Shown: in pieces, positions 1 through 11,439 of the stretch
Numbering within the stretch: the first letter of the stretch is position 1
How the letters are laid out: each line of letters opens with the position of its first letter
Source: a virus
IMG/VR virus record: IMGVR_UViG_3300038825_000703
Coordinates: 1,659 to 22,098 of that record
Direction: 5' to 3' (one strand)
Length of the DNA: 20,440 nucleotides
Notes under the pieces: generated by a model
Told to the model about the DNA's origin: nothing
Database searches by the model: none
What the model saw: only the letters and a program-made list of their open reading frames with translations
Made by a program: the position numbers and the translations under genes

Positions 1-26
1 ATTTTAAATTAAGAGCTATGTATTAA

Positions 27-89
27 ATGATTGAGGCAATAATAATTATTGAGATTGTTTTAGTTATTCTTGCCTCAGTTTATCAATGA
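27..89 (+). CDS. possible 20-residue hydrophobic peptide
   Basis: An ATG directly follows a TAA at 24-26, which could be the 3' end of a gene entering from the left edge. It opens a 20-codon frame that is almost all Ile, Val, Leu and Ala after the first residues, so the product would be a tiny membrane peptide. There is no strong ribosome binding site. The same bases hold an 8-bp inverted repeat (32-39 with 70-77), so this stretch may act as RNA structure instead. No function is recognised. Confidence 0.25.
   Translation: MIEAIIIIEIVLVILASVYQ
32..77 (+). other. large-loop hairpin, 8-bp GC-containing stem
   Basis: TGAGGCAA at 32-39 pairs perfectly with TTGCCTCA at 70-77, around a 30-nt AT-rich loop holding the palindrome AATAATTATT. 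No T-run follows, so this is not a typical intrinsic terminator. It lies just upstream of the ribosome binding site of the gene at 102, so a leader or processing role is possible. It resembles three other long-loop GC-rich hairpins further right. Confidence 0.4.
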
Positions 90-101
90 AAGGAAGGTTA
101 A

Positions 102-287
102 ATGAGTTTAGATAAAATAAAAGTTCAAAGATTTGTTTCATGGTTAGAACAGTGTCCAGTTGATTATGATGAAATACAAGAAACAACAGATGATGATATA
201 ATATCAATAAATTTTCATGGTAAAGATATTTATAAAACTACAATTAATGAAAAATGCGAATGTGATAAATGTAAAGGTATAATATGA
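102..287 (+). CDS. hypothetical acidic 61-residue protein with C-terminal Cys pairs
   Basis: The start is clear: AAGGAAGG lies a few bases before the ATG. The product is acidic in the middle (an ETTDDD stretch) and ends with Cys52, Cys54 and Cys57 spaced CxCxxC, a possible small metal site. No transmembrane segment or known domain is recognised. The stop overlaps the next start as ATGA (284-287), so the two are probably translationally coupled. It heads the + strand run that ends at 811. It is a real small phage gene by ribosome site and coupling, with unknown function. Confidence 0.75.
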   Translation: MSLDKIKVQRFVSWLEQCPVDYDEIQETTDDDIISINFHGKDIYKTTINEKCECDKCKGII

Positions 288-385
288 TAGTATTTGGACA
301 ACCTATTAAGAATACAAAGATTAGAATTATTTTAATCTGTATTATACTATTGACAAGTCTTGCAATAGGAATGATAATATTGTAA
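284..385 (+). CDS. 33-residue single-span membrane protein
   Basis: The ATG overlaps the preceding stop (ATGA), pointing to coupled translation. Residues 1-12 are polar with Lys9, Lys12 and Arg14. Residues 15-33 are continuously hydrophobic, rich in Ile and Leu, and end at the C terminus, so the product is a tail-anchored or single-pass membrane peptide. Its stop TAA (383-385) overlaps a further ATG at 385. Small early membrane peptides in phages may modify the host membrane, but nothing here indicates a particular role. Confidence 0.6.
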   Translation: MIVFGQPIKNTKIRIILICIILLTSLAIGMIIL

Positions 386-394
386 TGCAAATGA

Positions 395-586
395 ATGGAA
401 AGGATAAAAGGTTATTTAGAATACAAGTTAGACCTAGAATTATGTGGGGTAAATACCTTTGAGAAAGACCATGAAATTAGAAAAAGATATGAAAGGTATA
501 TCAAGGAAATTTCTGTGCGAAAGCACAGCAAGGATAGACAACAAGATATTAAAACTAATTCCAAAAACAATAATAACAAGAAATGA
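395..586 (+). CDS. hypothetical 63-residue charged protein (competing frame)
   Basis: This frame opens ten bases after the stop of the membrane peptide. Its first two thirds look like a real protein: a Tyr/Leu/Glu-rich segment, then Arg/Lys/Glu-rich helix-forming sequence. The last 15 residues are Lys/Asn low complexity, as if the frame had run past its natural end. No Shine-Dalgarno precedes the ATG. It overlaps the frame at 471-641 by 116 nt, more than phage neighbours usually share. Either both are real, only one is, or a frameshift joins them. Confidence 0.4.
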   Translation: MERIKGYLEYKLDLELCGVNTFEKDHEIRKRYERYIKEISVRKHSKDRQQDIKTNSKNNNNKK

Positions 587-641
587 CGCTAAAATAATAT
601 CAAGAACACTTTGGAATATAAAGAAAGGAAGGAAACAATGA
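471..641 (+). CDS. hypothetical basic 56-residue protein (competing frame)
   Basis: The product is strongly basic (Lys/Arg-rich, KKGRK near the end) and rich in Ile, without a recognised domain. Its codons end mostly in A, as in sure genes nearby, and its TGA overlaps the next ATG as ATGA (638-641), which favours a real coupled gene. A TTG at 459 is an alternative start, and that start would overlap the TGA (460-462) of a 25-codon frame starting at 385. Only a weak purine stretch precedes 471. Its relation to the frame at 395-586 is unresolved. Confidence 0.45.
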   Translation: MKLEKDMKGISRKFLCESTARIDNKILKLIPKTIITRNDAKIISRTLWNIKKGRKQ

Positions 642-811
642 AGTATGAATATCAAGATAATAGAGTGTGTATGTTTTATATAACTGATAGATTATCGGAC
701 ATATTAAAACAAAAAGACGAAAAAAAAACTCATAAAGAATTATCAGCTTTTTATGAAGAAATGATTTACAATTTAGGTGTTAATTCACTACATAATCATT
801 ATTCAGATTAA
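638..811 (+). CDS. hypothetical 57-residue protein
   Basis: An upstream in-frame ATG at 611 is possible, but the strong purine site AGGAAGGAA at 626-634 fits the ATG at 638, which also overlaps the previous stop. The product has an acidic/aromatic N terminus, a Lys-rich middle (about residues 26-36) and a helical-looking C-terminal third. No family is recognised. It is the last + gene before a long hairpin and the converging - strand island. Confidence 0.7.
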   Translation: MKYEYQDNRVCMFYITDRLSDILKQKDEKKTHKELSAFYEEMIYNLGVNSLHNHYSD

Positions 812-816
812 GAGGA

Positions 817-877
817 GGATTAGGGGGTAGAAAGAAAGAAAGGTATGATTCGATAGATCGAAAAACCCCCTAAATCC
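817..877. other. long nested hairpin between converging gene blocks
   Basis: Bases 817-828 (GGATTAGGGGGT) pair with 865-877 (ACCCCCTAAATCC), giving 12 pairs and one bulged A. Inside the loop, TTCGAT at 849-854 pairs perfectly with ATCGAA at 857-862 around a two-base loop, so the element is a hairpin within a hairpin. The loop also carries a GAAA-repeat tract. A 12-bp palindrome, ATATCTAGATAT, lies beside it at 881-892. Its place between converging blocks fits a bidirectional stop, but neither strand shows a clean T-run after the stem. A stable small RNA is an alternative. Confidence 0.6.
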
Positions 878-897
878 ATAATATCTAGATATAGTAG

Positions 898-1179
898 TTA
901 ACGATATTTAGAATACTTTATTTTGAGTTTGTTGGCAATCTCTTTTTCAAAGTTTTTATTCTTTTCTACTTCCGACCAATATTCCCCTACTATTCTGTCT
1001 ATTTCTGTTTCAGGCGTATTCTGACTTTTAAGGTACAATAAGAGCTTAGCAAGAGGGGGGTGTTTAACCTGATTTTTACGATTTCTATCTATAGCTTGTT
1101 TGTATTGAAAATTAGAAGACTTTCTAATTTTACTTAATTCATATTTGATAGTTTCAATTGGTACATATTTCTTATTCAT
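898..1179 (-). CDS. hypothetical basic 93-residue protein
   Basis: The product is Lys/Arg-rich and mostly helix-forming, with HPPLAKLL near residue 40 and a Lys-rich C terminus. No signal peptide, membrane span or known domain is seen. It could bind nucleic acid by charge, but that is inference. AGAAAGAA lies before the start. The gene follows the winged-helix gene after a 122-bp gap filled with repeats, so it may have its own promoter controlled there. It converges on the + block across the hairpin at 817-877. Confidence 0.6.
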   Translation of the reverse strand: MNKKYVPIETIKYELSKIRKSSNFQYKQAIDRNRKNQVKHPPLAKLLLYLKSQNTPETEIDRIVGEYWSEVEKNKNFEKEIANKLKIKYSKYR

Positions 1180-1191
1180 ACTAATTCTTTC

Positions 1192-1314
1192 TAACTAGTT
1201 AACTAGTTATATCTATATAATATATCTTTATTAAGGTACATTTATTCCACCACAGATTTGCATCAATTACACCACAGACTGACAGACCTGTTAACAAAGT
1301 GTTAACTATTAACC
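1192..1314. promoter_or_regulatory. palindrome and repeat cluster: operator or origin candidate
   Basis: The gap between two - strand genes holds three kinds of repeat. An 18-bp perfect palindrome at 1192-1209 consists of AACTAGTT twice in tandem with T/A flanks. CACCACAGA occurs twice (1248-1256 and 1270-1278), exactly 22 bp apart, with ATTN before each copy. GTTAAC occurs at 1198-1203, 1290-1295 and 1301-1306, with TTAACC at 1309-1314. The palindrome sits between an AT-rich TATA-like tract (1210-1228) and the start at 1179, where an operator would sit. The spaced direct repeats also resemble iterons. No DnaA box was identified. Confidence 0.5.
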
Positions 1315-1709
1315 AACTTTATCCCCCCTCTTTCCACAAACTTATCCCTAATCTTTTGTTGCTTAATTCTCTTTTGTTTTTCTGACATAACCCTACGCAA
1401 TCTAAGGTTGTCTTGCAATATGGATTGGAACTCAGGTTCATCTCTAAAATAATATTTGTTTGATTTATTCTGACCTCTATTTTTCCATGTGATATAGCCA
1501 AATAATTGTAATCTGTCCAAATGCCTGAGAACTGTCCTATTGTCCTTTATTTTGAGCTTACGTTTAAGATAGGTGTATGATGGACAACACCCCCTAATCG
1601 CAGTTCTGAGCCTTGTGAGGACGATATAAAGGCATTTTTCAGTAGGTGTTAGAACCTCATTGTCTATCAATGAATGGGGTACTTTTAAGAATGGCTCATT
1701 ACTACTCAT
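1302..1709 (-). CDS. winged-helix DNA-binding protein, replication-initiator/HTH_36-like
   Basis: The frame opens upstream at 1787, but that part would lie deep inside the oxygenase gene. The ATG at 1709 overlaps that gene's stop by 8 nt and gives 135 residues. LTPTEKCLYIVL (20-31) opens the fold, PSYTYLKRKLKI with NRTVLRHLDRLQ (43-68) reads as helix-turn-helix, and FGYITWKNRG...NKYYF (70-88) as the wing. This layout is that of HTH_36-type domains found in phage and plasmid replication or regulatory proteins. The C-terminal third is Lys/Arg-rich. Spaced repeats lie just downstream. The gene is richer in G+C than its neighbours (51 of 120 bases at 1561-1680). Confidence 0.7.
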   Translation of the reverse strand: MSSNEPFLKVPHSLIDNEVLTPTEKCLYIVLTRLRTAIRGCCPSYTYLKRKLKIKDNRTVLRHLDRLQLFGYITWKNRGQNKSNKYYFRDEPEFQSILQDNLRLRRVMSEKQKRIKQQKIRDKFVERGGIKLVNS

Positions 1710-2352
1710 CAAATACAATTTTAGCGTTAAAACTGAAAGAAATACGTTCATCTGTCTCACTATCCGAATAGAATGGATATACAGCATGACGTAAAGATGA
1801 TGGAAAGATATAGAAATCTTTTGTTATCGGCTCAACTAAATAATTGGCGTTTGTGAACATATCCTCAGTACCTTCAGTAAATTCAATCATACCACCAACT
1901 GAGTGATGTTCTTTAGAATGTTTATAATCTTTCATGGATTTAGGTAATTTTAAATATCCAACTGTAGATATATCAGGTGAAACATGACGATCTTCAAAAT
2001 GGGTATGGGTATGGTTGGGATTAAAATCCCCTGACTTTTGAATATTATGCCATGACGCTGTAACGATAATTTGTTTAACCTTTTTATGTTTATAATGCGA
2101 TATAGCATAATTAACAATCAAAGGGTCAAAGTATTTTTGTTTCCATTTTAACATGACAGGGTGGCTGACCAACAATTCTCTGTATAAATTTCCAGCAAGT
2201 CTATGACCAAATTGATGACCTTGTGTTTTTTCAGGTGATGATCTAATTGTATTTAAATCATCTAAAAATTCTTTTACTAAATCATCTGGTAATTCTGATT
2301 TTAAAATTGTTGAGCCAAAAGGTTTCAACAAACTACATTTAACATCACTCAT
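1702..2352 (-). CDS. putative 2OG-Fe(II) oxygenase
   Basis: The 216-residue product follows the phage-type 2-oxoglutarate/Fe(II) dioxygenase pattern. Trp101-His-Asn begins the core, followed by a His cluster (His114, His116, His118) as candidate iron ligands. The strand STVGYLKLP (129-137) comes next, then FPSSLRHAVYPF (183-194) with the distal His189, and ERISFSFN (202-209), whose Arg203 would bind 2-oxoglutarate. It resembles the 2OG-FeII_Oxy_5 group. The segment between the His cluster and the strand is longer than I would expect. It overlaps both neighbours by 8 nt, so it belongs to a three-gene unit. The substrate is unknown: protein, nucleic acid or small molecule are all possible. Confidence 0.72.
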   Translation of the reverse strand: MSDVKCSLLKPFGSTILKSELPDDLVKEFLDDLNTIRSSPEKTQGHQFGHRLAGNLYRELLVSHPVMLKWKQKYFDPLIVNYAISHYKHKKVKQIIVTASWHNIQKSGDFNPNHTHTHFEDRHVSPDISTVGYLKLPKSMKDYKHSKEHHSVGGMIEFTEGTEDMFTNANYLVEPITKDFYIFPSSLRHAVYPFYSDSETDERISFSFNAKIVFDE

Positions 2353-2863
2353 TTTTAAATTCCTCTATTGGTTTTAAGTTATTAATTGGGATAGACCAAA
2401 CATAAGGTCTTTCTTCTTTACCGAAGTTTGTCCAATTGCCACATTTTTGACAATTTTTTGCTTGTATGTAGCCATAAAAATAAAAGGTTGGGGTATCATC
2501 ACCCACCAAAAAATAATAATCTTCAGCTTTAAAACCTTTTCTAATTATAAGTGATTTATTTGGTTTAGAATACAACTGACTTCGCACTTGAACAGACTTA
2601 TTATTTATAATAAGGTCTTTACCAAAGAAATTGTTAACACTATGCGAAAAATAAGATTGCATTTTCTTAGAAAGAGCCATTTCACATAGCGTTCCTGAAA
2701 CGCTTTTACCCCATTTATCATATCTATTAAATGAAGCACCATGACCCCACTCAATATTTTGTCTTAAACTTTCAACCTCTCTTACAATTCCTGTACTAGC
2801 ACCAGATAATATTTCTTCCCATTTTAAATCGACTGTTTCAATGGACATAAATTTCTCATACAT
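2345..2863 (-). CDS. restriction-endonuclease-fold (PD-(D/E)XK-like) protein
   Basis: The 172-residue product is read as nuclease-like from a weak pattern: Glu61 in a helix (GTLCEMAL), Asp83 in GKDLII, then a strand NKSVQVRSQ with Gln92 and Arg94 where (D/E)xK would fall. Further strands are SLIIRK and DYYFLVGDD, followed by Cys138-x-x-Cys141 and a closing VWSIPINNLKPIEEF. Families with this order include phage endonucleases and Vsr/Hjc-type proteins, some with altered motifs. Arg in place of Lys makes catalysis uncertain. An ATG at 2848 (residue 6) is an equally good start. The gene is first in the island and diverges from the nuclease at 2928. Confidence 0.45.
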   Translation of the reverse strand: MYEKFMSIETVDLKWEEILSGASTGIVREVESLRQNIEWGHGASFNRYDKWGKSVSGTLCEMALSKKMQSYFSHSVNNFFGKDLIINNKSVQVRSQLYSKPNKSLIIRKGFKAEDYYFLVGDDTPTFYFYGYIQAKNCQKCGNWTNFGKEERPYVWSIPINNLKPIEEFKNE

Positions 2864-2890
2864 GATTTAAAATTAAATGCAAATTAATTG

Positions 2891-2927
2891 TTGACTTAAT
2901 TGTAAATAAGAATTAAATACATTGTCA
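2891..2927 (+). promoter_or_regulatory. sigma70-type promoter, nearly leaderless
   Basis: TTGACT at 2891-2896 matches five of six -35 bases. Sixteen bases on, TTAAAT (2913-2918) matches four of six -10 bases; TAAATA one base later is an alternative. Transcription would start about 2924-2927, right at the ATG at 2928, and no ribosome binding site lies between. This suggests a leaderless or near-leaderless early transcript made by host polymerase. Confidence 0.5.
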
Positions 2928-3878
2928 ATGGAAGAAAGATTTACAGATTTAGCTTGGACATCAGGAGATTTTAATAAAGCCACAACATCAGGAAGTCAAA
3001 CAGCTTTAACAGATATGATGTGGGGATTAACATATCATATATTCCCATATTTAAATATTAAAAAAAGAAAAGCATCTATAAGTTTAAAAGCAGGAACTTT
3101 TATACATGAGTGGTTTCAAAAAATATTAATTGGTAAAGCAAAAATTGAAGAAGCTGAACAACATTTTAAAACTCATTTAGAACAATTAGATTTAGATGAA
3201 AGACATAAAATAAAAGGTCTTTTTATTTTAAGACACATAAATAAATTTATTCAAAATCATATAGACGCTGTTAAAGAAATCGCAAAGACTGATAAAGGTT
3301 ATGAAATTGAGTTACCTTTTTCTGATTGGTATGATGATAAATATTTAGATACAAAATTAAATATAGCCAATGAAGGTTATATTGATGTGGTTCACAAAAT
3401 TTTAAAAATGTTTTGGGAAAATAAAAATAGGTTAGGTACTGTTCGATTATCGCCACTTAAAGTTAATAGAAAAGACACTAATACAAATAGAATAGGAGAT
3501 TGGGTTTATTCAAAATCTCCTCAAATAAAATCTCCACAATTTACTCATTGTATTCAAACATCAATTTATTCTAGGCATTTTAACAATGAATATAAACCAC
3601 ATTTAATTTATGTAACTGACGCAGACTACACAATATTTTCACCTGATAATTGTTGGGAGTTATCCCCTGAAGGACTGAAATATTTTTTTAAAAAATTCAT
3701 ACAAATAAATATAAGAAGACAAGAACTATTGAGAACAGCAGATGGAAGTATTAAAAAATTTGCTTGTTTAATTGATGTGGATTGGTCTGAGATTAGAAAT
3801 TACAAATCTAATTTTATGCTAGAAAACTATGCAGAGGAAGATATGCAAAGATTAGAAAAATTTTATGAGGAACTATAA
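2928..3878 (+). CDS. PD-(D/E)XK nuclease-family protein, Cas4/RecB-like, with odd motif III
   Basis: A TTG at 2922 is in frame, but the ATG at 2928 is preferred, giving 316 residues. The motif order is that of Cas4/RecB-type nucleases: KAGTFIHEW (54-62) with His60, Glu128 in YEIELPF, EGYIDVV (149-155) with Asp153, and late QTSIYSRHF (210-218), the QxxxY motif. The usual (D/E)xK should lie between the last two, but the best candidate is SPLK (175-178), with Pro in the acid's place. An upstream Glu may substitute, or the enzyme may be inactive. It leads an operon with a probable annealing protein, so DNA-end processing for recombination is the likely role. The stop overlaps the next ATG by one base. 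Confidence 0.65.
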   Translation: MEERFTDLAWTSGDFNKATTSGSQTALTDMMWGLTYHIFPYLNIKKRKASISLKAGTFIHEWFQKILIGKAKIEEAEQHFKTHLEQLDLDERHKIKGLFILRHINKFIQNHIDAVKEIAKTDKGYEIELPFSDWYDDKYLDTKLNIANEGYIDVVHKILKMFWENKNRLGTVRLSPLKVNRKDTNTNRIGDWVYSKSPQIKSPQFTHCIQTSIYSRHFNNEYKPHLIYVTDADYTIFSPDNCWELSPEGLKYFFKKFIQINIRRQELLRTADGSIKKFACLIDVDWSEIRNYKSNFMLENYAEEDMQRLEKFYEEL

Positions 3879-4123
3879 TGAGAGTTTGGAATATTAAAGT
3901 TACAGATAGAGGGGGGTCAGATGATTATTCTTTTATTCAAGAACATACACCTACCGAACAACAGTTAAATCAAATCAAAGAAATATATCAAAACTCAGGC
4001 AGATATTTAAAAGAAGAATTAGATGATATTGATGTTGAAATTTATAACAGTTTTGACAAATCAAAAATTCCTACATGGAATACATTTATAGAATATTTAA
4101 AGGAGGAAAAAACAAGTGATTGA
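3878..4123 (+). CDS. hypothetical acidic 81-residue protein
   Basis: The ATG overlaps the nuclease stop by one base (TAATG), so translation is probably coupled. The product starts MRVWNIKVTDRGGSDDYSF, which looks like a small beta strand pair, and continues with acidic, Gln/Glu-rich helices. No family is recognised. It could be a nuclease partner by position only. The strong AGGAGG for the following gene lies within its last codons. Confidence 0.65.
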   Translation: MRVWNIKVTDRGGSDDYSFIQEHTPTEQQLNQIKEIYQNSGRYLKEELDDIDVEIYNSFDKSKIPTWNTFIEYLKEEKTSD

Positions 4124-4277
4124 AAATATTAAAAAGGAACAAGTAAGAAACGATACATATATTTTAAATAAGATAATGCGTTATTTAAAATTAAATATTC
4201 ATAAAGTTGTAAATGATAATGACTTATCTTTTATTTATGAATATATAAAAGAAAGTAGAAAAAAGAGAGGTAATTAA
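4116..4277 (+). CDS. hypothetical 53-residue protein with GTG start
   Basis: AGGAGG at 4101-4106, nine bases upstream, decides the GTG start at 4116. The frame overlaps the preceding stop by 8 nt and its own TAA overlaps the next ATG (TAATG at 4275-4279). The product is basic, rich in Asn, Lys, Ile and Tyr, helix-forming, and ends KKRGN. It has no recognised domain. Ribosome site and tight coupling on both sides make it a real gene despite its size. Confidence 0.65.
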   Translation: MIENIKKEQVRNDTYILNKIMRYLKLNIHKVVNDNDLSFIYEYIKESRKKRGN

Positions 4278-4516
4278 TGACAGACAAAATATTAGTTAAA
4301 CTTGCTCAATATCAAACAGAAACAAGAAATCAAAAGCAAGAACTAAAAACTTACGTTCAAAAGTTATTAGATAGAGAGGAAGAAATAAAAAAACTAAAAG
4401 AAGAATACGAAGAAAAAATCAAACTATTGAAAGACGATATAGCTTTCAAAGATAGAATGATTAAAGAACTAAGACCCAAACCAAAGATAAGAAAGGTAAA
4501 GAAAAATGAAAATTGA
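4277..4516 (+). CDS. 79-residue coiled-coil protein
   Basis: Nearly the whole length is heptad-like, with Leu/Ile every three or four residues among Glu, Lys and Gln (about residues 5-65). The C terminus is basic (PKPKIRKVKK). There is no membrane segment. It overlaps the annealing-protein gene by 11 nt, so the two are likely made together. A scaffold or accessory role for recombination is inference from place only. Confidence 0.65.
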   Translation: MTDKILVKLAQYQTETRNQKQELKTYVQKLLDREEEIKKLKEEYEEKIKLLKDDIAFKDRMIKELRPKPKIRKVKKNEN

Positions 4517-5132
4517 TCCAATTGTAAAAGATATTTTACAAGAACTTAAATTCAATCCTAATGAATGTTTGTGGGAAAAGCATGGTGCAACTTGCATGAA
4601 ACATAGATATATTGAAATTGCAGGACAAGAGAAAGGTGTAGTCATTGAAAGTTTAGATGAAATAGAAAAGAACTCAGCAGAAGGTGTAGTTGCAATTAAA
4701 TGTACTGCAAGTCTAGGTAAATCAAAAGTAATTACTTATGGTGAAGCAACACCAAAAAATAATAAGAATGGTTATCCATATGCAATGGCAGAAAAAAGAG
4801 CAATTGATAGAGCTATACTAAAATTAATAGGTATTCATGGATTTGTTTATTCTGATGATGAAGTGGATGATAAGTTCGAAAATGTTGAAGTAAAAAAAAC
4901 AGAAACAAAAGAACAACCAAAAAAGAAAATTGATGATCTATATATTACAACAGCACTAGATAAAATTAAAAACAATAAAGAAAAAAAAGATTCTGTAGTT
5001 TTAAGAAGTGAAATGGAAAATCTTAAAACTGAGATACATCAGTCTATGGGTTGGGATGCGTTTACCAAGACTGAAAAGTTTAAAACATTCAACGCATTAA
5101 AAAATCAAATACTAAAACAACGAAGGAGTTAA
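4506..5132 (+). CDS. probable single-strand DNA annealing protein, Rad52/ERF/Sak-like
   Basis: The 208-residue product has the layout of phage annealing proteins. Residues 1-90 form alternating strands (GVVIESLDEIE, VVAIKCTASLGKSKVITYGEA). The signature GYPYAMAEKRAIDRAILKL (89-107) runs into GIHGFVYSDDEVDD (109-122), the Ala/Arg helix and acidic end typical of Rad52/ERF/DUF1071-type cores. A Lys/Glu-rich linker and a helical C-terminal domain follow, as in proteins that bind an SSB or nuclease partner. It would pair single strands during recombination-dependent replication. The Cas4/RecB-like protein upstream and the small protein downstream support this. Exact subfamily is not certain. Confidence 0.65.
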   Translation: MKIDPIVKDILQELKFNPNECLWEKHGATCMKHRYIEIAGQEKGVVIESLDEIEKNSAEGVVAIKCTASLGKSKVITYGEATPKNNKNGYPYAMAEKRAIDRAILKLIGIHGFVYSDDEVDDKFENVEVKKTETKEQPKKKIDDLYITTALDKIKNNKEKKDSVVLRSEMENLKTEIHQSMGWDAFTKTEKFKTFNALKNQILKQRRS

Positions 5133-5135
5133 ACT

Positions 5136-5330
5136 ATGGCATTTGAATTAAAAGAAGGTGAAGGTTATCTAAACAGAGATAATGAAAACCCAGAAAAGTT
5201 TTGGGGTTCATTCAAACTTAGTAAAGATATGAGAAGGGGTGATACCTTAAATCTTACTGAGTGGATAAACACCAAAGATGATGGAAAAGTTGTTCATAAA
5301 TTACAAGAGAGAAAGCCTAAACAGGCTTAA
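5136..5330 (+). CDS. hypothetical 64-residue protein after the annealing protein
   Basis: AAGGAG lies eight bases before the ATG, and only 3 nt separate it from the annealing-protein gene. The product is charged and probably beta-rich: GEGYLNRDNEN, then FWGSFKLSKDMRRGDTLNLTEW, which reads like a small single-domain DNA-associated fold seen near phage recombination genes. It is too short for a standard SSB. The hairpin at 5343-5390 follows its stop. Confidence 0.65.
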   Translation: MAFELKEGEGYLNRDNENPEKFWGSFKLSKDMRRGDTLNLTEWINTKDDGKVVHKLQERKPKQA

Positions 5331-5342
5331 TCTGTAATAGAT

Positions 5343-5394
5343 GGGGTGGTCGTTTTTTAAGCTCCCTTGCTGTTAGTTAGCTACCACCCCTTTT
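5343..5394 (+). terminator. GGGGTGGT hairpin: terminator or leader structure
   Basis: GGGGTGGT (5343-5350) pairs perfectly with ACCACCCC (5383-5390), followed by TTTT (5391-5394). Inside the 32-nt loop, AGCT at 5360-5363 can pair with AGCT at 5379-5382, stacking on the outer stem. The T-run fits an intrinsic terminator closing the recombination block. However, the stem ends eight bases before the ATG at 5399, which has no other ribosome site, so control of that gene is also possible. Confidence 0.6.
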
Positions 5395-5398
5395 ACTT

Positions 5399-5605
5399 AT
5401 GGACTTAATTATTTTATATGATGGATTGTATAGTTTAGTGCCTGTAACAAAACAAATGTTAGAAGATGTAAAAATTATTAGTGGTGTAGATTGTTTTGAT
5501 CTTTGCGACATACTACGTTTGAAACTTACTACATACCATGAAGGATGGAACGCACATATTATGAATGATGGTAGTGGTGATTTTTATGGATGTATTTGTA
5601 AATAA
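5399..5605 (+). CDS. hypothetical 68-residue protein
   Basis: The product begins with a hydrophobic strand (MDLIILYDGLYSLV), continues through VTKQMLEDVKIISGVDCFDLCDILRLKL, and ends NDGSGDFYGCICK, with four Cys in all. No family is recognised. There is no Shine-Dalgarno because the bases before the ATG belong to a GC-rich hairpin, which is unusual for this operon. A later in-frame ATG at 5456 would leave 49 residues. The frame is intact and followed by a gene with a clean AAGGAG. Confidence 0.55.
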   Translation: MDLIILYDGLYSLVPVTKQMLEDVKIISGVDCFDLCDILRLKLTTYHEGWNAHIMNDGSGDFYGCICK

Positions 5606-5620
5606 ATTTAAGGAGAATAG

Positions 5621-5956
5621 ATGTCAGATGACAATATAAAATGGATAGATATTGGTGAGAAAATGACCAAGCAAATGTTAGAACAAAAACAAAAAGAATA
5701 TGGTAGCTTTGATAACAACTCTTATATCATTGCAAACTTCATACAATCTGTATTGGAAGTAACAAATGGATTTAAAATAAAAGTACCTATAACTTTAGTA
5801 CCACAGTTGATGATCGTATTAAAATTAACAAGAACAATAGATGATGGTAGTGGCAAAGATATTTATAAACTTGACACACACAAAGATATTGATGGGTATA
5901 ATTCTTTATTAAAAGATATGCTTCACAATATGAAAGGTCAGGGTAAAAATGATTAA
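5621..5956 (+). CDS. DUF6378-like phage protein
   Basis: AAGGAG precedes the ATG. The 111-residue product has a helix ending KQKEYGSF (24-31), a helical middle, and the signature KLTRT...KDIYKLDTHKDIDGYNSLLKDML (83-108), in which Arg85, the two KD motifs and the DIDGY turn match my recollection of the DUF6378 family of phage proteins. Helical acidic proteins of this look recall MazG/dUTPase-like folds, but no catalytic set is clear enough to claim. It overlaps the next gene by 8 nt. Confidence 0.6.
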   Translation: MSDDNIKWIDIGEKMTKQMLEQKQKEYGSFDNNSYIIANFIQSVLEVTNGFKIKVPITLVPQLMIVLKLTRTIDDGSGKDIYKLDTHKDIDGYNSLLKDMLHNMKGQGKND

Positions 5957-6218
5957 TAAATCTAAGATATTTTACAGTCCAAGAATCAAAGAAATCATAG
6001 ATTTTATGTCAGTTTATTACAATGAACATCAATGTTTTCCTAAATTAGATGAGATTGGCAAAGCATTAAATCTTACAAAACAAAGAGTGGGTATTCTTTT
6101 AAAAAATGCTGAACGATTAGGATTGATAAAATCTGACAATGTTTTTATGAGAAAGTATATGTTGACGAAATCAACAAAAAACAGTAAATTAAAAGTCAAT
6201 AATTATTATGAGTTGTAA
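5949..6218 (+). CDS. LexA-like winged helix-turn-helix regulator
   Basis: The 89-residue product has, at about residues 11-60, the LexA N-terminal pattern: a first helix (RIKEIIDFMSVYYNEH), CFPKLDEIGKALNLTKQRVGILLKNAERLG with a Pro before helix 2 and a recognition helix around KQRVGILLKNA, then a short wing. There is no LexA protease domain, so this is a stand-alone DNA-binding unit. AGGG lies before the ATG. It is likely an early transcription regulator, acting with or against the XRE protein at 6604. Its target site is not identified. Confidence 0.65.
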   Translation: MINKSKIFYSPRIKEIIDFMSVYYNEHQCFPKLDEIGKALNLTKQRVGILLKNAERLGLIKSDNVFMRKYMLTKSTKNSKLKVNNYYEL

Positions 6219-6387
6219 AAAAATATATTACTATGAGTTTACTGCAACTCTTGAGGAGGAATTTGATTCTGTTGAGAAGGCAGCAGGACAAATAAATGCA
6301 ACAGATAATGCAATTGTGAAAGAAATAACACACAAAAATCTGGTGCATAGTTTAATAAAAAAGGAGGATAAAGATGATAGGAAATAA
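6208..6387 (+). CDS. hypothetical 59-residue protein
   Basis: The ATG lies inside the end of the regulator gene (11-nt overlap), and the end overlaps the next gene by 14 nt. The product starts SCKKIYYYEFTATLEEEFDSVEKAAGQINATDNAIVKEI, a pattern of strand, acidic helix and strand, and ends in a Lys/Asp-rich tail that also carries the next gene's AGGAGG. It may be a small alpha/beta accessory protein, with no family recognised. Confidence 0.6.
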   Translation: MSCKKIYYYEFTATLEEEFDSVEKAAGQINATDNAIVKEITHKNLVHSLIKKEDKDDRK

Positions 6388-6559
6388 TGAGCTTCCTATA
6401 ATCGAAAACCAAATGGATGATTTGCATAGAAAGATTAAATCATCTGTTCGTAATGGAAATCTATGCGTTCATATACTTAGAGATATGAGGTTGTATAGAA
6501 ATCTATTTAAAGAAGCTGTAAAAATACAGGACAGACAAGCTAAATATTTATACGAATAA
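6374..6559 (+). CDS. hypothetical 61-residue helical protein
   Basis: AGGAGG lies seven bases before the ATG. The product is helical and basic, with IIENQMDDLHRKIKSSVRNG then ILRDMRLYRNLFKEAVKIQDRQAKYLY, similar in look to small helix-pair proteins in phage early operons. No known domain is recognised. A 44-bp gap with the AAGGAAGGG ribosome site of the XRE gene follows. Confidence 0.65.
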   Translation: MIGNNELPIIENQMDDLHRKIKSSVRNGNLCVHILRDMRLYRNLFKEAVKIQDRQAKYLYE

Positions 6560-6603
6560 TTAGCATTGTTAGACATAAACTTTAAAAGAAAGGAAGGGTA
6601 TCT

Positions 6604-7029
6604 ATGTCTCAAAATAAAAGAAGAAAGACTGACGAACAACGATCAAGAGAAATAAGGTTCAACAAACATTGTGGAACAAGGCTAAGAAATTTGAGGTGTA
6701 AGAATAAATACACACAGACTGATCTTGGTAATGTTCTAGGTTATTCATTTCAACAAATACAGAAATACGAAAAAGGTGATAATGTTATGACTGGTTTTGT
6801 TGCAGGTGTGTTAGCAAATTTTCTGAAAGTAAATATAAATTATTTTGCTGAAGGTTTTAACTTTGATAACTATACAAGTAATCTTAAATACGAAGATCGT
6901 TTTCCAGAAGTAAATAGATGTAACCAAGTAAGGAATGAAAAGTTATATCCTAATCCTAATTCTTATGGTGAATTGTCCGACCATATGAATGTGTTTCCTA
7001 GTAATGAAATACTTAAAATTGGACAGTAA
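6604..7029 (+). CDS. XRE/Cro-CI family helix-turn-helix regulator
   Basis: Residues 20-84 form an HTH_3-type domain: FNKHCGTRLRNLRCKN, then YTQTDLGNVLGYSFQQIQKYEKGDN (37-60), where QTDLGNVLG and SFQQIQKYEKG are the helix-turn-helix. AGVLANFLKVNINYFAEGF closes the domain. The N terminus is a basic, Arg/Gln-rich extension. The C-terminal 55 residues are polar, of unknown role, and lack a CI-type protease domain. AAGGAAGGG precedes the ATG. It probably represses or times early transcription. Cro/CI-type proteins occur in temperate and virulent phages, so it does not prove lysogeny. Confidence 0.85.
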   Translation: MSQNKRRKTDEQRSREIRFNKHCGTRLRNLRCKNKYTQTDLGNVLGYSFQQIQKYEKGDNVMTGFVAGVLANFLKVNINYFAEGFNFDNYTSNLKYEDRFPEVNRCNQVRNEKLYPNPNSYGELSDHMNVFPSNEILKIGQ

Positions 7030-7064
7030 CAAATGCGAAAATAAACTATATAAATAATCAATAA

Positions 7065-7094
7065 GGTGGTTAGATAGTAGGCGATCTAGCCACC
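7065..7094 (+). promoter_or_regulatory. 11-bp hairpin flush against a start codon
   Basis: GGTGGTTAGAT (7065-7075) pairs with ATCTAGCCACC (7084-7094) around the 8-nt loop AGTAGGCG. All 11 pairs form in + strand RNA because position 6 is a U-G wobble; in - strand RNA it becomes a C-A mismatch, so the + RNA is the likelier functional form. No T-run follows. The stem ends five bases before the ATG at 7100, which has no ribosome site. Its arms recall the hairpin at 5343. Confidence 0.6.
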
Positions 7095-7099
7095 ACTAT

Positions 7100-7249
7100 A
7101 TGAAATACAAATCTCCAATTGCCAAACCACAAAAGCCTGTAGATCAATTAGATAAATTAGCAAATCTGTATAACAAAACTAAGGAGAAGAAGTATAAAGA
7201 ACAATGGTATGAATTGGTTAAAAAAATTGTTCGGCATATTCCTAATTAA
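7100..7249 (+). CDS. 49-residue basic protein behind a hairpin
   Basis: The product is basic with Pro and Lys at the start (KYKSPIAKPQKPVDQLDKL), then helix-forming sequence rich in Lys, Tyr and Trp (KTKEKKYKEQWYELVKKIV), ending RHIPN. It looks like a genuine small protein with one amphipathic helix, but no family is recognised. The ATG is placed five bases after a strong hairpin and lacks a Shine-Dalgarno. Its stop overlaps the stop of the converging - strand gene (7246-7249). It is the last + gene of the early block. Confidence 0.6.
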   Translation: MKYKSPIAKPQKPVDQLDKLANLYNKTKEKKYKEQWYELVKKIVRHIPN

Positions 7250-10938: not shown

Positions 10939-11099
10939 TCTGCTATTTTTCCTTTGTTAATTCCTTTTTTAATAACATATTTTTGTGTACCATTTGCACC
11001 TGTATCTACTTCTTTTCTTAGATACTTAAAGACATTCATTTCTTTTAATTTTTTTTCTGCCTTTTTTTTAAATGATTCCAAAACTTTAACATCCCTCAT
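10935..11099 (-). CDS. hypothetical basic 54-residue protein
   Basis: The frame starts inside the nuclease gene's end (14-nt overlap) and its stop forms ATGA with the next start. The product is basic: MRDVKVLESFKKKAEKKLKE, MNVFKYLRKEVDTGANGTQKY, VIKKGINKGKIAE. The second half suggests a small beta hairpin. No family is recognised. Tight coupling and unbroken sense in this slot argue for a real gene. Confidence 0.6.
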   Translation of the reverse strand: MRDVKVLESFKKKAEKKLKEMNVFKYLRKEVDTGANGTQKYVIKKGINKGKIAE

Positions 11100-11439
11100 A
11101 ATCAACCATCATAAGTTTTATGTTTAATTTTTTTTGCTTGTCAGTTGGAGTTCTATATATCTTCCTTGACCTTTTATTCCAATTTGGTTTACCTTTCTTA
11201 CGATAGGTATTTGTCTTAATATCAAGCAAAGATATTTTACCATTTCTATCGACAACCACAATATCAAAAGGACATTGAGGATCGACAGATTTTGCCACAT
11301 AATAACCTCTTTTTGTAAGTTCAGAAATTATTTCTAATTCTCCGACAATACCTTTAACTGATTTTGTTGTTATAATTTTGAGATTAGGGTGATCGCCAAG
11401 TTGACTAATCCACTCATACTTACTCCGAATACAACCCAT
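11086..11439 (-). CDS. Hjc/PD-(D/E)XK-type nuclease
   Basis: The 117-residue product fits archaeal Holliday-resolvase-like nucleases: KGIVGELEIISELTKRGY (29-46) with Glu34/Glu36, then PFDIVVV (57-63) with Asp59, then ISLLDIKTN (69-77) with Asp73-x-Lys75, and a basic C terminus rich in Lys, Arg and Tyr. All three motifs are intact. AAGG precedes the ATG at 11439, although that gives a 70-nt overlap with the XhlA-like gene. It could resolve branched DNA before packaging, or cut host DNA. Being inside the late lysis/structural block is unusual for a recombination gene. Confidence 0.72.
   Translation of the reverse strand: MGCIRSKYEWISQLGDHPNLKIITTKSVKGIVGELEIISELTKRGYYVAKSVDPQCPFDIVVVDRNGKISLLDIKTNTYRKKGKPNWNKRSRKIYRTPTDKQKKLNIKLMMVDYEGC

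Follow-up and report, generated by a model that had tools for sequence, protein, structure and literature searches.

Organization of the gene block

The minus-strand genes at positions 898-2863 of the window, the stretch of 20,440 nucleotides analysed here (part of a 23,127-base virus record), belong to a conserved block in which a predicted nuclease-like protein (P1), a winged-helix protein (P3) and a basic protein (P4) are encoded by core genes, and a 2OG-Fe(II) oxygenase (P2) is encoded by an optional, freely exchanged cassette on which P1 does not depend. The original prediction had taken the P1, P2 and P3 genes for a single three-gene functional unit; this part was not borne out, because P2 is gained and lost between near-identical phages, and the trio is no fixed unit.

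The early genes of the window are on the plus strand (102-811 and 2922-7029), and most late genes, which start at 7246, are on the minus strand. The island at 898-2863 runs against the genes on both sides, as described originally. The three minus-strand genes of the original prediction (2345-2863, 1702-2352 and 1302-1709) are all open reading frames, and the 8-nt overlaps it reported are found at both junctions (2345-2352, TCACTCAT; 1702-1709, CTACTCAT). As a correction to that trio, a fourth minus-strand gene, P4 (898-1179), is part of the same conserved block. The features of the region are as follows.

820-828 / 865-873 (820..873), unstranded: perfect inverted repeat of 9 nt at the convergence of the plus- and minus-strand blocks
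898..1179, minus strand: P4, conserved basic protein of 93 aa, last gene of the block, syntenic in relatives
1180..1301, minus strand: noncoding stretch between P3 and P4, with repeats at 1262-1278 and 1240-1256, followed by AT-rich TAAAGATATA...AACTAGTTAG; putative iterons of an origin, or putative operator
1302..1709, minus strand: P3, winged-helix DNA-binding protein of 135 aa, similar to phage replication initiators in their N-terminal part
1702..2352, minus strand: P2, 2OG-Fe(II) oxygenase of 216 aa (PF13759 / phrog_81; H114xH116, H189, R203), optional cassette
2345..2863, minus strand: P1, PD-(D/E)XK-fold nuclease-like protein of 172 aa (167 aa from the probable start at 2848), assigned from a structural model and conserved residues
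2922..3878, plus strand: putative PD-(D/E)XK exonuclease, divergent neighbour with RecB-like motifs recognised by eye; it lies opposite P1 in close relatives
4506..5132, plus strand: putative single-strand annealing protein of the recombination module, assigned from its sequence pattern by eye, syntenic in relatives

The start of P1 is probably the sixth codon (2848) and not 2863, since a stop lies just upstream of the sixth codon in some relatives. For P3, the mechanical ORF caller gave a start at 1787, and the relatives favour 1709. The base counts given earlier were exact (51 G/C in 1561-1680 and 16 in 3061-3120), and in G+C the 120-mer at 1561-1680 ranks within the highest 1.1% for the window and the highest 0.23% for positions 1-7100. 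This is no sign of foreign origin, because the P3 gene is a conserved coding sequence with an overall G+C content of 36%, against 31% for the window. The inverted repeat at 820-873 is a possible two-way terminator judging from its sequence and position, and it was absent from the terminator-like sites of a terminator and promoter scan. The same scan found no more promoter hits in the window than in shuffled sequences, and the best minus-strand promoter-like site in it (TTGACA-18-TACAAT, 2928-2899) lies in the divergent gap. An Rfam search gave no match. Two further observations concern genes outside the block: a homologue of cI-like HTH_3 repressors, conserved in relatives, is encoded at 6604-7029 in the early plus-strand block, and a second PD-(D/E)XK-like protein, with weak matches to PDDEXK_5 and phrog_5018, at 11086-11439 among the late genes.

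P2 is an exchangeable cassette

The arrangement of the block recurs in dozens of contigs, far beyond chance, and the order is kept: the exonuclease gene diverges from P1, which is followed by P2 where present, P3 and P4. Relatives with scattered genes, which would have spoken against the original prediction, were not seen. Among the 82 distinct P1 proteins, the gene after P1 is P2 in 54, P3 directly in 23 and something else in five. On the tree of these proteins, at least six changes are needed between having P2 and having P3 as the next gene, and nine when all three states are counted.

Three comparisons led us to conclude that P2 is freely exchanged and that P1 does not depend on it. Between contigs L081 and L089, DNA identity is 94.9% as far as the end of P1 and 96.6% beyond the end of P2; only the P2 gene is extra, and the crossover lies within the ATGA stop/start overlap at both ends. 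The P1 of contig L084, which lacks P2, is the same as the P1 of L080 and L082, which carry it, except for the C-terminal tail, and all active-site residues of P1 are kept in the phages without P2. Finally, the P2 of the window is 96-97% identical to those of L036-L038, while the P1 proteins are only 64-65% identical, with 97% for P2 against 65% for P1 in L036-L037, so P1 and P2 need not match each other.

In 106 fetched P2 loci, which are partly redundant and were in part fetched through P1 so that the count is no clean frequency, P1 was immediately upstream in 96, in the same locus with a gene between in four and absent in two, and the upstream DNA was missing in four. The pairing includes relatives found via P2 alone, whose divergent P1 was detectable only by profile, and it is also present in the cultured Pelagibacter phage HTVC106P (MN698244). 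Its gp10 and gp11, annotated only as hypothetical proteins, are the same pair in the same order, with overlapping genes, and are 27% and 42% identical to P1 and P2, respectively. Unlike the window, HTVC106P has a methyltransferase-like gp07 and an HNH-like gp09 upstream, and P3 and P4 are not adjacent. Its gp12 (L004:4157-4411) resembles, by HMM label, a piece from the N-terminus of the exonuclease family found opposite P1 in the group of the window. Neither a nuclease partner nor a swap site like those of P1 and P2 was found in the literature searched, although the search was not exhaustive.

Predicted structures and active sites of P1 and P2

The AlphaFold2 model of P1 (pLDDT 90, pTM 0.87) agreed with the restriction-fold pattern noticed originally. 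The 18 top-scoring solved entries were all PD-(D/E)XK enzymes, at modest scores (Z 5.0-7.7, below 8), with Eco15I/NhoI, I-Ssp6803I, Hjc, D212, PvuII and DpnI among the top matches; Hjc (Z 6.0-6.5) was tied with restriction and homing enzymes. The predicted fold is thus PD-(D/E)XK, and a non-nuclease fold, which would have counted against the original prediction, was not seen. The predicted active-site set consists of E61, D83, Q92 and R94, and Q96, K100 and R108 are invariant in addition. In all of the 82 distinct P1 relatives G57, E61, D83, Q96, K100 and R108 are unchanged; Q or E occupies position 92, and position 94 has R in 68 relatives and K in 14. The conserved motif is therefore E..D..(Q/E)x(R/K), and the superfamily pattern is E / D / (E,D,Q)xK. 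These residues fit a restriction-type active site; P1 is a putative and not a proven nuclease, since most members carry arginine in place of the lysine that is usual there. At the sequence level, P1 belongs to phrog_18407, a family without assigned function, and had no meaningful match to Pfam nuclease families, to solved structures in the PDB or in PADLOC. In bacterial genomes P1 was found only in two MAG contigs, whose content resembles co-binned phage.

P2 matched PF13759 (2OG-FeII_Oxy_5) over residues 100-209 with an E-value of 1e-14 and 55.2 bits, against a Pfam gathering cut-off of 27, so that the oxygenase pattern seen earlier was confirmed; its score was below the cut-off of TIGR02466 (38 versus 62.5 bits). 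P2 and all 30 relatives tested belong to phrog_81, and H114, H116, H189 and R203, corresponding to the family pattern HxH...H...R, are invariant in 30 relatives. The model of P2 (pLDDT 89) matched, with Z about 15, enzymes of the prolyl-4-hydroxylase type and 3bvc and 2rg4, two uncharacterised proteins from marine bacteria, and the HxH is also present in 3bvc. P2 thus resembles the oxygenases of PF13759, TIGR02466 and phrog_81, including cyanophage copies, in fold and residue pattern. In several cyanophage genomes P2-type oxygenases are encoded near gp45/gp44, gp32/gp59 or UvsY genes; unlike the window, the more distant cyanophage PF13759 copies examined had no P1 homologue nearby. A PD(D/E)XK protein that precedes the oxygenase of cyanophage Sf-FR1 was considered as a homologue of P1 and rejected, as there was no HMM match.

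P3, the paired repeats and neighbouring genes

The winged helix noticed originally in P3 was recovered in Pfam as HTH_36 (E 5e-10). In PHROG, P3 matched phage replication initiators in their N-terminal part (replication initiation protein family phrog_270, E 7e-12), and further matches were among initiator and helicase-loader families (phrog_428, phrog_391 and phrog_345). A tblastn search of cultured phages with P3 gave no match. A stand-alone DnaA domain IV protein is encoded directly before the P3 relative in L032 (3848-4363) and L033 (8274-8789), called by a Pfam match in L032 and by similarity in L033.

The repeat region mentioned in the original prediction consists of two 17-nt copies (1240-1256 and 1262-1278), which are identical at 14 of 17 positions, a level reached in none of 100 shuffles. 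The two copies are 22 nt apart and lie upstream of P4. The best internal repeat had a spacing of 22-23 nt in 37 of 39 sequences (window included), although in some of these phages shuffled sequences matched equally well. Between phage types the two copies vary in a coordinated way (e.g. GGTAC-N7-GTACC and GGTG-N9-CACC), and the distances between repeat types track P3 better than they track P4 or P1 (partial r 0.42 for P3 given P4, permutation p 0.001; -0.06 for P4 given P3). Since their divergence follows P3 and an AT-rich stretch adjoins them, the paired repeats are probably an origin or operator, to which P3 would bind. The locus is similar to lambda-O-type initiators with iteron origins in its winged-helix N-terminal domain, paired repeats about 22 nt apart and AT-rich stretch. 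It differs in that the protein is short and has no C-terminal part, and in that there are only two repeats, which lie outside the gene.

P4 had no convincing assignment in Pfam or PHROG and only chance-level hits in phages; by analogy of position, it may occupy the place expected for a helicase loader. The product of 2922-3878 matched the 'putative nuclease' of Pelagibacter phage HTVC028P and had no Pfam assignment, and that of 4506-5132 had no PHROG match.

Modification genes in the wider group

The positions around P1 and P2 are occupied in divergent lineages by methyltransferases of the C5 (PF00145), MT-A70 (PF05063), N4/N6 (PF01555) and Dam types (PF05869), and a PAPS-reductase-like gene (phrog_424) is present beside P1 in several divergent contigs (e.g. 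L178:3026-3850 and L153:4835-5692). A methyltransferase of these types was near P1 in 21 of 91 dereplicated loci and in none of the 43 loci carrying P4, a comparison which is biased, with an inflated odds ratio, because the gene clusters were defined near P1, and on which we place no weight. Searches for PF00145 and PF01555 in 21 records of the window lineage (that of the window included), many of which are fragments, found none, and the controls worked. As far as gene content tells, the P1/P2 locus gathers DNA-modification genes in the wider group, in distant lineages and not in the close relatives of the window.

A likeness to TET/JBP-TAGT hypermodification loci is seen in the relative L033, a contig without detectable P2, in which a TET-associated (TAGT) glycosyltransferase (5712-6884; PF20691, E 4e-38) is encoded between P1 and P3. 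Unlike TET/JBP, P2 is of the PF13759/P4H type, and no glycosyltransferase or C5-methyltransferase was detected in the window. P2 itself did not match the profile of TET/JBP DNA dioxygenases; a Pfam search up to an E-value of 1 gave PF13759 alone. TET-like oxidation of phage-made 5-methylcytosine was rejected for the window lineage, as a search of the 21 related records, with a working control, found no C5-methyltransferase.

Possible roles of the block

We tentatively propose, giving it slightly less than an even chance, that the block belongs to a replication-recombination module of a pelagiphage-like phage and makes up its replication half, with a single accessory slot, and that P2 optionally modifies phage DNA or a protein bound to it. 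P3 would bind the paired repeats between the P3 and P4 genes and start replication there, P4 would assist the start from the loader position, and P1 may trim or resolve DNA intermediates of replication or recombination, in cooperation with the exonuclease and the annealing protein encoded nearby. P2 would most likely hydroxylate phage DNA or, as the second-best candidate, a protein bound to phage DNA, and would add protection or regulation, with P1 working without it. The gene order, the predicted folds, the cassette exchange, the conservation of the P1 active-site residues and the concerted repeats are the directly observed parts of this scheme, and the match of P3 to initiators and the DnaA domain IV protein beside P3 in L032 support a replication module. 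The role in modifying or processing nucleic acid that was originally suggested is still plausible, but not for the trio as one unit, given that P2 is optional; the action on host defence or rival phages suggested with it stays conjectural.

DNA or a DNA-bound protein is preferred as the target of P2 mainly because modification genes gather at the locus. Against a DNA substrate, the window's close relatives lack a recognisable DNA methyltransferase in the PF00145 and PF01555 searches, and the closest solved folds to P2 are protein prolyl hydroxylases, which favours a protein substrate. P2 could accordingly be a prolyl-4-hydroxylase-type enzyme that hydroxylates a host protein or a phage replication protein in favour of infection, with the slot beside P1 an inherited convenience; we regard this as somewhat unlikely. 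The best matches of the P2 model (Z 14-15.7) were a Pseudomonas putida P4H with EF-Tu (4iw3 and 4j25), PHD2 and a viral collagen prolyl hydroxylase, and EF-Tu is a precedent substrate for a bacterial P4H. The independence of P2 from a closely matching P1, and its pI of 6.7, unlike the basic P1, P3 and P4, point in the same direction. However, P2 shares only 11-20% sequence identity with the prolyl hydroxylase structures, the fold is common to many 2OG enzymes, and the rest of the locus is mostly concerned with DNA metabolism. In addition, P4Hs carry HxD, where P2 and its family have HxH.

Marine phages commonly carry accessory genes for 2OG-Fe(II) oxygenases. The functions of these enzymes have not been specifically investigated, and metabolic roles have been proposed for them in cyanophages and pelagiphages (PMC9602691); in other pelagiphages they are co-located with ferrochelatase and described as its partners (PMC9599517). 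That P2 is a metabolic auxiliary gene altering host 2-oxoglutarate, oxygen or iron handling, with an incidental location, nevertheless seems very improbable to us, as the partner of P2 is a nuclease-like gene across wide divergence and no ferrochelatase was apparent by eye among the ORFs of the window. Hardly more probable is a pair resembling restriction-modification, in which phage DNA would carry a mark made by P2, and P1 would cut host or rival DNA that lacks it. The position of P1 directly upstream of P2 in most fetched loci, including those of very divergent phages and HTVC106P, would suit such a pair, as would the restriction enzymes among the best fold matches of P1, some of which are modification-dependent (Eco15I, NhoI and DpnI), although these matches are tied with homing-endonuclease and Holliday-junction-resolvase folds. 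What makes a strict pair unlikely is that P1 stays the same in the absence of P2: it is kept intact in phages without P2 and without detectable PF00145 or PF01555 methyltransferases, so that the two are not obligately paired, and nearly the same P2 is found with P1 proteins differing by 35%.

A P1-P2 two-gene module, in which the oxygenase, of PF13759 type, would introduce a new DNA modification and the modified DNA would be read or processed by the PD-(D/E)XK partner, is in our view doubtful; if true, it would be a phage modification system distinct from TET/JBP and methylation. The near-isogenic phages which differ by one 2OG oxygenase gene at a fixed site, beside a conserved nuclease-like gene, are a natural experiment, in which the effect of P2 on phage DNA would be directly measurable from DNA of phages that have or lack it.
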